The translations under genes were made by a program, and so were the position numbers. This document shows, piece by piece, positions 27,514 to 41,594 of a stretch of DNA of 48,007 nucleotides; position 1 is the first letter of the stretch; every line of letters begins with the position of its first letter. Source of the DNA: Parcubacteria group bacterium (GTDB lineage: Bacteria; Patescibacteriota; Patescibacteriia; UBA1558; GWA2-36-10); NCBI GenBank assembly GCA_003104935.1, contig PQAE01000012.1, positions 68,988-116,994 of the forward strand, read 5' to 3'. Under the pieces are notes generated by a model. It was not told the DNA's origin and searched no databases. It saw only the letters and a list, made by a program, of their open reading frames with translations.

Positions 27514-27543
27514 GAAAAAAGGGTTGCCAGAGGCGGCACATGT

Positions 27544-39691: not shown

Positions 39692-40459
39692 GTGAAGTGG
39701 CCCCGATCTTTAACATTCATTAACTCAGACAATATAGTCGGGGGCCTCGTAACCAATGACCCCCTCTATTCCCGTTTTGTCCAGGCGTTTGAAGCTGACC
39801 CAGAAAGTCAAACCACCCATCAGCTGGCCGCAAAATTCGCCAAAAAACACCATTTGGTGACACGCCGGCAATCCACGCAGCTCAACAGTGACGAAGGTCA
39901 AAAGGCCCAGAAAACCGGTACGGCTCTCAGTAAATTGTTAAAATTGCCTCAGGCAATTTTTCTTTCTCCTGAAGACCGCACCGTTGCCGTCTGGGACAGA
40001 CTATGCAAAGGTTGGCCCTCGCTTAACAGTGTCACCCCCCGGGTGATTGAAGACCGACTGCGTCGCCAGTCTTTTGGTGCCGCCGATGCTTATGGCGACC
40101 AGAGGATATATCTAGCTCTGGAGCGAGCGGAACGTCAACGTTTTCATCACGAGGGTCCCTACTGGTACCGATGGCCAGAGGGAGAAAACATAGCCGATCT
40201 GCGCCAACGCAACGAAGAATGGTTTGCCACTCTACTCACCGACTTCTCGGAAAAGAATCTACTGATAATCACCGACCACACCAGCATCTTAGCTACTATG
40301 GCTAACATCGAGGGCTGGTCCGACCGGATCTTTCTGCGGTATCGCCGCCTTAAACAGCCAGAAATTCTGGCTGTTACTAAATACTACGGCGAGCCTAATG
40401 ATGGAAGAGAAGGTAAGTTGTTGTCAGTGGTCTTCAACGAGACCTTCTGGGACGTCTGA
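39692..40459 (+). CDS. histidine-phosphatase-like protein with altered RHG motif
   Basis: 255 aa from GTG at 39692, chosen for GGAGG 8 nt upstream. The layout follows the phosphoglycerate-mutase fold: LVTRRQSTQLNSDEG where the family has LVRHGES..N, then IFLSPEDRTVAVWDRL (SPLxRAxQT-like), WPEGENIADLRQRNEEW, and LLIITDHTSIL (second His retained). The phospho-accepting His and Gly of RHG read Arg and Gln here. So it is either catalytically dead, a binding protein, or a remote relative. Own promoter and strong terminator; more GC-rich than neighbours. Confidence 0.65.
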   Translation: MKWPRSLTFINSDNIVGGLVTNDPLYSRFVQAFEADPESQTTHQLAAKFAKKHHLVTRRQSTQLNSDEGQKAQKTGTALSKLLKLPQAIFLSPEDRTVAVWDRLCKGWPSLNSVTPRVIEDRLRRQSFGAADAYGDQRIYLALERAERQRFHHEGPYWYRWPEGENIADLRQRNEEWFATLLTDFSEKNLLIITDHTSILATMANIEGWSDRIFLRYRRLKQPEILAVTKYYGEPNDGREGKLLSVVFNETFWDV

Positions 40460-40470
40460 CCATTAACTTG

Positions 40471-40515
40471 AGCGCTCCTCCGATTCTCGAACATTCGGGA
40501 TTTCGGAGGAGCGCT
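40471..40515 (+). terminator. intrinsic terminator
   Basis: AGCGCTCCTCCGA / TCGGAGGAGCGCT, 13-bp stem, 19-nt loop, followed by TTAAAATT. Confidence 0.85.
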
Positions 40516-40542
40516 TTAAAATTACTAAAATAATAACAATTA

Positions 40543-40571
40543 TTGACTTTTTGCCAATAATTATTTATAAT
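40543..40571 (+). promoter_or_regulatory. promoter of the tRNA-rpmG operon
   Basis: TTGACT (40543-40548), exactly 17 nt, TATAAT (40566-40571). Confidence 0.8.
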
Positions 40572-40610
40572 ATACCCCGTTATAGTCAAAATATAACAAT
40601 AAGGCCTTAA

Positions 40611-40735
40611 GCCGATTTAGCCCGTCCGCCACCCTAGCTCATTTGGTAGAGCAATGGTTTTGCCACCGCCCGAAAGCGGGGTGCCGCCAGAGGCGGCATA
40701 AACCGATATCAAGTTCATTAGATAAAAATGCTTAG
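40611..40735 (+). pseudogene. tRNA-Thr-like 5' half interrupted by a GC-rich palindrome (copy 1)
   Basis: Begins GCCGATTTAG, is joined to GCCACCCTAGCTCATTTGG with D-arm and GCAATGGTTTTG, then breaks in the anticodon loop. The insert runs CCACCGCCC...GGCGGCA (about 36 nt), with a perfect TGCCGCC-AGA-GGCGGCA hairpin. TAAACC resumes the anticodon stem, but no T-arm or acceptor 3' strand follows; instead there is a spacer shared with copy 2 (AAGTTCATTA...ATAAAAATGCTT). Confidence 0.6.
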
Positions 40736-40842
40736 GCCGATTTAGCTCAGTGGTAGAGCAGCAGTTTTGCCACCGCCAAAAGGCGGGGTGCCGCTGTGCG
40801 GCATAAACCTGATTATAAAGTTCATTATTATAAAAAGCTTTG
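40736..40842 (+). pseudogene. tRNA-Thr-like 5' half interrupted by a GC-rich palindrome (copy 2)
   Basis: GCCGATTTAGCTCAGTGG through GCAGTTTTG is the same as the intact tRNA-Thr at 40843 up to the anticodon loop. The insert (about 34 nt) has GCC-AAAA-GGC and TGCCGC-TGT-GCGGCA hairpins, then TAAACC and the shared spacer. No T-arm. Confidence 0.65.
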
Positions 40843-40917
40843 GCCGATTTAGCTCAGTGGTAGAGCAACGGTTTTGTAAACCGTAGGTCGTCGGTTCAAG
40901 CCCGACAATCGGCTCCA
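40843..40917 (+). tRNA. tRNA-Thr (TGT)
   Basis: Complete cloverleaf: acceptor GCCGATT/AATCGGC, D-arm GCTC-AGTGGTA-GAGC, anticodon stem ACGGT/ACCGT with loop TTTGTAA (anticodon TGT), variable AGGTC, T-arm GTCGG-TTCAAGC-CCGAC, encoded CCA. The intact third unit of the tandem array. Confidence 0.96.
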
Positions 40918-40949
40918 TTAAACCTTTAATCAATTATTAATTAATTCTT

Positions 40950-41105
40950 ATGTCCCAAGATAGATTAGCTAAACTAGAATGCACTGTTTGCCACGCCATA
41001 AATTATTACAGCACTCGCAATAAGAAAACAATTAAGGAGAGGCTGGAAAAGAAAAAACATTGCACACACTGCAAAAAACATACTTTACACAAAGAAACTA
41101 AATAA
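40950..41105 (+). CDS. rpmG: 50S ribosomal protein L33
   Basis: 51 aa. [16 protein letters not shown] and [15 protein letters not shown] are the L33 signature, with both CxxC pairs, so this is the zinc-binding form. It lies between tRNA-Thr and tRNA-Trp, as in many bacteria. Expected next genes secE-nusG are not here. No SD seen. Confidence 0.95.
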
Positions 41106-41155
41106 GCGACTACTTAGTTTTTTGAGGAAATAGTAAAAGATTTCCTCATTTGTGA

Positions 41156-41229
41156 GGGGGAGTAGTATAGTGGTAGTACAGGGGTCTCCAAAACCTCTAG
41201 CCTGGGTTCGATTCCTAGCTCCCCTGCCA
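41156..41229 (+). tRNA. tRNA-Trp (CCA)
   Basis: Acceptor GGGGGAG/CTCCCCT (first pair G-U), D-arm GTAT...GTAC, anticodon stem GGGGT/ACCTC with loop CTCCAAA (anticodon CCA), T-arm CTGGG-TTCGATT-CCTAG, discriminator G, encoded CCA. Confidence 0.95.
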
Positions 41230-41231
41230 AA

Positions 41232-41245
41232 TCGTGCTAGCACGA
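41232..41245. other. 14-bp perfect palindrome just after tRNA-Trp
   Basis: TCGTGCTAGCACGA begins 3 nt after the tRNA CCA end. It is followed by a TCGTTA...TAACGA inverted pair. It marks the junction between the housekeeping tRNA operon and the restriction-modification island; possible attachment or processing site. Confidence 0.35.
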
Positions 41246-41306
41246 CCTCGTTACTTTCGAAGCTAACGAAGTCTGCTTCAAATAAGCCTTGCTTCGAGTC
41301 ATAAAG

Positions 41307-41335
41307 CCGTCCAACTAGGACGGTTTTGTGTTTTT
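41307..41335 (+). terminator. intrinsic terminator of the tRNA operon
   Basis: CCGTCC-AACTA-GGACGG followed by TTTTGTGTTTTTT. Confidence 0.88.
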
Positions 41336-41342
41336 TGTGGTG

Positions 41343-41373
41343 TTGTACTAAAATACAATTAATGTGATATAAT
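41343..41373 (+). promoter_or_regulatory. hsd operon promoter with probable XRE operator
   Basis: TATAAT at 41368-41373. The -35 region holds TTGTA-CTAAAA-TACAA (41343-41358), a 5-bp inverted repeat suited to an XRE dimer. The best -35 (TTGTAC) gives a 19-nt spacer, so basal activity may be weak. Confidence 0.55.
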
Positions 41374-41387
41374 AGTAAGGCAGTATT

Positions 41388-41594
41388 ATGACAAATTCAT
41401 CAAGAAAATTAGGCGTTAATGTTCGCAGAATAAGAGAAGAAAAGGGCATGACTCAAGGTGACTTATGCAGGAAACTGGCGCTTGATCGTGCTTATCTTAG
41501 TAACGTTGAAAGTGGCAAAAAGAATCCAACTTTGGCGACTATAGAGCGTCTTGCTGAAGCTTTAGGCGTTTCAGTCGACGAATTATTAAAATAA
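41388..41594 (+). CDS. XRE-family HTH regulator (controller-like)
   Basis: 68 aa, almost entirely an HTH_3 domain: VRRIREEKGMTQGDLCRKLAL with the recognition helix RAYLSNVESGKKNPTLATIE. It matches the small controller (C) proteins that pace restriction-modification expression. It is 4 nt upstream of hsdM. The inverted repeat in the promoter is its likely operator. Confidence 0.88.
   Translation: MTNSSRKLGVNVRRIREEKGMTQGDLCRKLALDRAYLSNVESGKKNPTLATIERLAEALGVSVDELLK

Follow-up and report, generated by a model that had tools for sequence, protein, structure and literature searches.

The question raised by this locus is why two copies of a tRNA gene, each interrupted at the same place by a GC-rich double hairpin, should stand in front of an intact gene for the same tRNA. 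The locus belongs to a stretch of 48,007 nucleotides (nt) of a Parcubacteria group bacterium (assembly GCA_003104935.1, contig PQAE01000012.1, positions 68,988 to 116,994, forward strand), named the window below. It contains two tRNA-Thr(UGU) copies broken in the anticodon loop by double hairpins of 36 and 34 nt, followed by an intact tRNA-Thr(UGU) gene. The original prediction had read this architecture from the window, and both the broken copies with their coordinates and the intact gene could be confirmed (Table 1). The pattern looks like the product of a little-known selfish element that leaves a working tRNA copy behind. The explanation favored here, with somewhat better than even confidence, is that elements linked to a GIY-YIG nuclease gene repeatedly invade tRNA genes and regenerate the tRNA, and that the window preserves two stacked remnants of such elements, both without the open reading frame (ORF).

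Evaluation of the inserted sequence, designated X, relied on an alignment of 28 copies. The consensus was CC(A)CCGCC-NNN-GGCGGGG directly joined to TGCCGCC-NNN-GGCGGCA, that is, two abutting GC-rich hairpins with zero unpaired bases between them, one bulged A, and freely variable loops. In these sequences, 98.2% of the cells were paired compared to 41.6 to 70.9% with the partners slid, a control biased in favor of the X structure because this structure was derived from the same sequences, and three pairs showed changes on both sides. The 12-mer X core GCGGGGTGCCGC had five exact matches in the 975,546 nt of the genome harboring the window. The proposed search for further tRNA genes with the palindrome yielded a uniform result, all five being located in anticodon loops of tRNA copies: two in the window, another two in further copies of tRNA-Thr, and one in a copy of tRNA-Tyr on contig C6.

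The two broken copies in the window differ in their state of decay. The 5′ halves had been described as intact up to TTTTG, which holds for copy 2 with 94% identity of its first 34 nt to the intact gene in the genome search, and not for copy 1, which is more decayed and carries an extra GC-rich stretch, CCCGTCCGCCACCCTA, in the D-arm region. Both copies were 81% identical to each other over 98 nt in the same search and are devoid of the T-arm and the 3′ acceptor strand. The 3′ spacers, thought to be shared, both contain AAGTTCATTA and end with GCTT.G; they are alike, not identical. Judged from these sequences, the decay order fits a sequential insertion into the respective intact copy.

When the same locus was compared in relatives, empty and filled sites with the same promoter and tRNA-Trp gene were found. 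In nine genomes of the family, the promoter is positioned directly before an intact tRNA-Thr(UGU) gene with tRNA-Trp downstream, and in other genomes of this family, a copy broken by X or a variant of it, or a fossil copy, lies between the promoter and the intact gene. One genus contains both states (L226 empty, L240 filled), and every filled tRNA-Thr(UGU) locus examined retains an intact tRNA. Upstream, the native promoter and 5′ flank adjoin the broken copy, and downstream, the native 3′ flank adjoins the intact gene; the additional material has therefore been placed inside the original gene, separating its 5′ part from its 3′ part. The earlier suggestion of a decaying tandem array is supported by the position of the copies, one behind the other downstream of the native promoter and upstream of the intact gene, and by the empty site in relatives.

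The position of the break was the same beyond this locus. In other genera of the class, it is the bond 34/35 in tRNA-Tyr and 35/36 in tRNA-Thr, one bond being common to copies of tRNA-Tyr, tRNA-Thr(UGU), and tRNA-Thr(CGU) in many genera, and an intact copy of the same tRNA normally adjoins the broken one. A gapped X pattern matched in 11 genomes of 189 relatives (the window's genome included); each match separates YG from TAA in the anticodon loop of tRNA-Tyr or tRNA-Thr. The reversed full gapped pattern gave no match in these 189 genomes. When 381 genomes of the class were scanned for any insert of 25 to 55 nt between CAGACTG and TAAATCT, most matches were AT-rich chance matches, and the X family plus variants with compensating changes appeared in about 14 genomes. 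The other classes of the phylum are nearly free of X: the full pattern was present in 1 of approximately 347 genomes of other classes (L213), where it also adjoins a GIY-YIG ORF. A scan of 84,980 species added further Patescibacteria loci of the same kind, including a tRNA-Ser(UGA) case (L048). Among 103 tRNA fragments with 145 internal ends, a sample partly selected by X, the anticodon loop accounted for 52 ends, of which 48 fell on just two bonds. That other genomes of the class have the same double-hairpin family at this bond supports the assumption that the anticodon loop is targeted.

A nuclease gene is part of this arrangement at several tRNA-Tyr loci, with the order truncated tRNA-Tyr, X, TAAATCT, a GIY-YIG ORF of about 80 amino acids, and intact tRNA-Tyr. 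The GIY-YIG ORFs scored above the cut-off for PF01541. In a sample of 65 tRNA-Tyr genes of relatives that was not selected by X, 10 had a GIY-YIG ORF on the same strand 13 to 59 nt upstream, compared to about 10 GIY-YIG genes in the entire genome that contains the window. In the locus L138, such an ORF follows directly after a tRNA-Thr 5′ half broken between TTTTG and TAAACC, which is the slot occupied by the spacers in the window. A second GIY-YIG type was located after a different double hairpin, TGCGCCCGAGGCGCACTCGCCTTTGGCGAGGA, in the T-loop of tRNA-Tyr (window's genome, L202, and L032), and a third type in the window's genome lies between a palindrome-holding fragment of tRNA-fMet and the intact tRNA-fMet gene (L102, approximately 1410 to 1760). 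In a phylogenetic tree, the GIY-YIG proteins behind anticodon breaks cluster, with 3 label changes compared to 11.8 after shuffling and none of 500 shuffles as low. Particular GIY-YIG types are associated with particular hairpins and break sites. Behind a broken tRNA-Tyr (L165), a short AT-rich stretch resembles the tail of the neighboring GIY-YIG unit, and the spacers in the window may likewise be deletion remnants of a GIY-YIG unit.

Table 1. Features of the tRNA-Thr(UGU) locus, given as positions of the window
Feature	Position	Strand	Basis or remark
Sigma-70-like promoter TTGACT-N17-TATAAT that belonged to the original tRNA-Thr gene and now precedes the broken copies	40543..40571	+	Sequence reading; same promoter in empty-site family members
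Broken copy 1, tRNA-Thr(UGU) 5′ part to nt 35, ending ..GGTTTTG; older, more decayed	40611..40662	+	
Double hairpin X, copy 1, 36 nt, CCACCGCCCGAAAGCGGGGTGCCGCCAGAGGCGGCA, between nt 35 and 36	40663..40698	+	Sequence, 28-sequence alignment and pair count
TAAACC (start of the tRNA 3′ part, at 40699) and AT-rich spacer	40699..40735	+	Same slot as the GIY-YIG ORF after broken tRNA-Thr in L138
Broken copy 2, tRNA-Thr(UGU) 5′ half, nt 1-35; younger	40736..40769	+	
Double hairpin X, copy 2, 34 nt, CCACCGCCAAAAGGCGGGGTGCCGCTGTGCGGCA, between nt 35 and 36	40770..40803	+	
TAAACC (at 40804) and second AT-rich spacer	40804..40842	+	
Intact tRNA-Thr(UGU)	40843..40917	+	ARAGORN; Rfam tRNA 75.2 bits
tRNA-Trp(CCA), conserved downstream neighbor, marks locus identity in relatives	41156..41229	+	Same neighbor in family genomes

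These data can be combined into a model. A fuller unit would consist of the tRNA up to the break, a GC-rich double hairpin, a short tRNA stretch of a few nt from beyond the break, a small GIY-YIG ORF, and a complete copy of the same tRNA. The GIY-YIG enzyme may cut the intact tRNA gene at a fixed bond, predicted for type I to be YG^TAA of the anticodon loop, and recombinational repair would insert a unit whose last segment is a new 5′ part of the tRNA. By this, a whole tRNA would be restored downstream, and the previous 5′ part would be left behind as a pseudogene capped by the hairpin. Because the intact target is restored, the site should be open to a new hit, so that units would pile up; in the window, two such rounds may have occurred, with loss of the ORF afterwards. 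As expected for a homing element, occupied and empty alleles exist at one target site. In classic homing, the insertion destroys the cut site and makes the carrier resistant; here, an intact target persists, and regeneration of the target in place of its destruction sets the model apart.

Stacked units were also found elsewhere, on contig C6 of the window's genome and in L191, L091, and L032. In addition, intact tRNA genes are nested in broken ones. At L158:1558-1740, one tRNA-Thr(UGU) is interrupted in its anticodon loop by a second, complete tRNA-Thr(UGU) that is enclosed by complementary arms. Perfect 13-nt arms within a D-loop enclose a tRNA-Thr(GGU) in L155, and in the window's genome, the D-loop of a tRNA-Thr(CGU) holds another tRNA-Thr(CGU). 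The same genome harbors an intact tRNA-Ile in a broken tRNA-Ile on the minus strand (L212, contig C1 near 2182), bordered by the perfect inverted repeats ATCTTTCAGAATACTCGC and GCGAGTATTCTGAAAGAT and with palindromes in the D and T arms of the outer copy, and an intact tRNA-Asn nested in a broken tRNA-Asn (L102, approximately 2110 to 2400, contig C8), the outer anticodon arm being replaced by the inverted repeat TGACCCCTCTT and AAGAGGGGTCA.

Several of the observations weigh against a nuclease-driven origin. There is no GIY-YIG ORF in the unit of the window, and most of the X-bearing tRNA-Thr units have none. The short tRNA stretch past X often fits the local tRNA and not a donor. Of the inner branches in the GIY-YIG tree, 5 of 33 were well supported. 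Units that retain a 3′ half (L022, L069, L093, and L156) and the nested units (L158 and the tRNA-Ile and tRNA-Asn cases) need extra steps in the model. Moreover, X occurs in Omnitrophota at non-tRNA places, often hairpin-like ones such as GCCAG[X]TTGGC or GCACG[X]AAAGTGC, with neither tRNA nor GIY-YIG gene, so that X may be an independent mobile hairpin. In six Omnitrophota loci (L044, L060, L064, L065, L077, and L096), X was in small stem-loops, with no tRNA; TTGACA-like boxes often follow these stem-loops, which are repeated across one genome.

This leads to the main rival of the GIY-YIG model, namely, that X is an independent mobile palindrome inserting into hairpin loops, comparable to the palindromic elements of Rickettsia or the double-hairpin elements of mitochondria, which strikes tRNA genes as hairpins, with only redundant copies surviving and the GIY-YIG genes as passengers. 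It is considered possible at a rather low probability. The Omnitrophota copies agree with it, and also an X at the hairpin-like site AAATTCG[X]TAATTT outside of a tRNA in a member of the Patescibacteria (L073), other palindromes in D- and T-loops of broken tRNA copies, and an X-like double hairpin inside the loop of X's own first hairpin (L157:1118-1190). At loci selected by an intact tRNA-Tyr only, and hence not by X, 29 of 48 ends were in the D, anticodon, or T loop, compared to 17.5 ± 3.3 expected, a count reached in 3 of 5,000 draws. A loop-seeking palindrome leaves unexplained why GIY-YIG ORFs are positioned 13 to 59 nt upstream of tRNA-Tyr, why the proteins cluster by break site, and why all X cores of the window's genome are at one bond in tRNA copies. 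A palindrome spread over random intergenic places with no preference for tRNAs, which would have spoken against the original prediction, was not the situation in Patescibacteria, where X was outside of tRNAs at two loci, L073 and L213; the Omnitrophota copies were outside as well. For high-GC Actinobacteria and similar genomes, matches to the X pattern were attributed to chance on the basis of their flanks. Both readings may apply together, with the nuclease making the breaks and mobile hairpins filling them. The 3′-type units and the nested units are poorly explained by the GIY-YIG model and by the independent palindrome alike.

The nearest functional precedent is SegB of phages T4 and T6, a free-standing GIY-YIG homing endonuclease. 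According to the accessible part of the source, SegB causes amplification of tRNA-Tyr together with segB into tandem repeats of 718 bp, often adjoins tRNA genes, and is implicated in breaks within tRNA-containing sequence (PMC13096335). A small GIY-YIG gene among tRNA genes, the link to tRNA-Tyr, and tandem repeats of tRNA and nuclease are common to both systems; the SegB system is from a phage and not a bacterial chromosome, whole tRNAs are amplified, and that part of the source mentions neither double hairpins nor copies with a break at a single anticodon bond (PMC13096335). Here, GIY-YIG genes among tRNA genes with tandem repeats were found in relatives and not in the unit of the window, and the extra copies are not whole functional tRNAs but are broken at loop bonds. 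A segmental amplification of the SegB kind is an improbable alternative, in which the nuclease promotes tandem duplication of the tRNA and its own gene, and spare copies decay and collect palindromes; tRNA dosage against tRNA-cutting toxins could be a benefit. The SegB precedent with its tandem repeats (PMC13096335) and the combination of tRNA-Tyr and tRNA-Thr with GIY-YIG ORFs in the arrays argue for it. With their breaks at fixed loop bonds and the hairpins inserted there, the repeats provide no gain in tRNA dosage, and plain duplication does not explain a single break bond across many genera.

Integrative elements with attachment sites in tRNA genes usually restore the 3′ part of the tRNA by an integrase, using a carried copy. 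Insertion into a tRNA gene and restoration by a carried partial copy are similar here. The units described here differ in that they would renew the 5′ part and have a GIY-YIG nuclease gene attached; no search for integrases was made. In rRNA genes of the candidate phyla radiation (CPR), the accessible text of one study describes many inserts, mostly at the top or base of stem-loops, with all GIY-YIG proteins there in inserts matching neither group I nor group II introns (PMC11270868). These inserts resemble the units described here by their presence in Patescibacteria, structured-RNA genes as targets, and GIY-YIG proteins. They differ in that rRNA is the target, the word tRNA being absent from that text, and in that they reside in a usually single rRNA gene copy without regeneration of the target, and no double-hairpin family is named there (PMC11270868). 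Double-hairpin or repetitive hairpin-forming elements of mitochondria, as far as the accessible part of the source covers them, are repeated, thought to be mobile, and present in RNA genes, with no attached nuclease gene, fixed anticodon bond, or regenerated intact gene (PMC2800124). X, which is composed of two abutting GC-rich hairpins and is repeated in the genome, resembles this type.

Literature on GIY-YIG in connection with Patescibacteria or CPR and tRNA, with subscription journals and preprints outside of the scope, contained no description of such broken tRNA genes. It is a tentative proposal, held at slightly less than even confidence, that the units constitute an undescribed class of mobile element specialized on tRNA genes in Patescibacteria, in which a GIY-YIG gene is combined with a terminal double hairpin and a tRNA segment for replacement. 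The nuclease types would differ by bond (anticodon loop, T-loop, or D-arm) and by tRNA, and regeneration of the target would lead to stacking and to nesting of intact tRNAs in their own broken copies. Genes for tRNAs are essential and often single-copy in reduced genomes, and an element with repeated cycles of breaking and rebuilding such genes would, if true, follow a striking selfish strategy and account for the scattered tRNA fragments in Patescibacteria. The model predicts cut sites for small GIY-YIG enzymes otherwise known by their domain name alone. For tRNA annotation in this class, caution is needed since broken copies and nested genes are common.

Introns of tRNA genes usually sit in the anticodon loop. 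An intron, or halves of a split tRNA joined by splicing, is nevertheless a very improbable interpretation of X and the broken copies. Its support comes from the position of X in that loop and from one copy with a 3′ half retained behind X (L031). The inserts of 34 to 47 nt are too short for known self-splicing introns, the copies in the window have lost the T-arm and 3′ acceptor strand, and an intact tRNA-Thr(UGU) gene is present. The window's genome yielded no member of the tRNA splicing endonuclease family PF01974 and no RtcB ligase PF01139, and in Rfam at positions 40400 to 41400 of the window, with E values up to 5, there was no known RNA besides tRNAs and no intron family. A split, trans-spliced tRNA, which had been mentioned as a remote alternative, as well as a tRNA intron were rejected on these grounds. 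Rfam matches to SpF41, ST7-OT3, and miRNA families were below the gathering scores and disregarded. An origin from IS200/IS605 elements was also rejected, as no Y1 transposase (PF01797) was found in this genome, and with respect to a viral source, the exact X pattern was not found in IMG/VR contigs.

An assembly artefact is hardly conceivable. The assemblies are metagenome-derived, repeats are prone to misassembly, and contig C6 ends within a tRNA-Tyr copy; against an artefact, genomes from many families that were assembled independently share this architecture without any shift in register. At this end of C6 (L009:1-60), the contig stops within the tRNA-Tyr copy, which is the only AGACTGTAAATCT match of the genome, and this end is probably an assembly break in the array.

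Two minor observations concern the window itself. The single-strand RNA fold of the broken copies gave modest z-scores of −0.99 and −2.09, which were not used as evidence. A fragment at 27526 to 27538 had been regarded as related to X; it is a lone palindrome piece, GCCAGAGGCGGCA, behind a terminator-like repeat and without the X core, and the link is weak, with two occurrences of the 9-mer GAGGCGGCA compared to 0.3 expected, a number reached in 3 of 100 shuffles.
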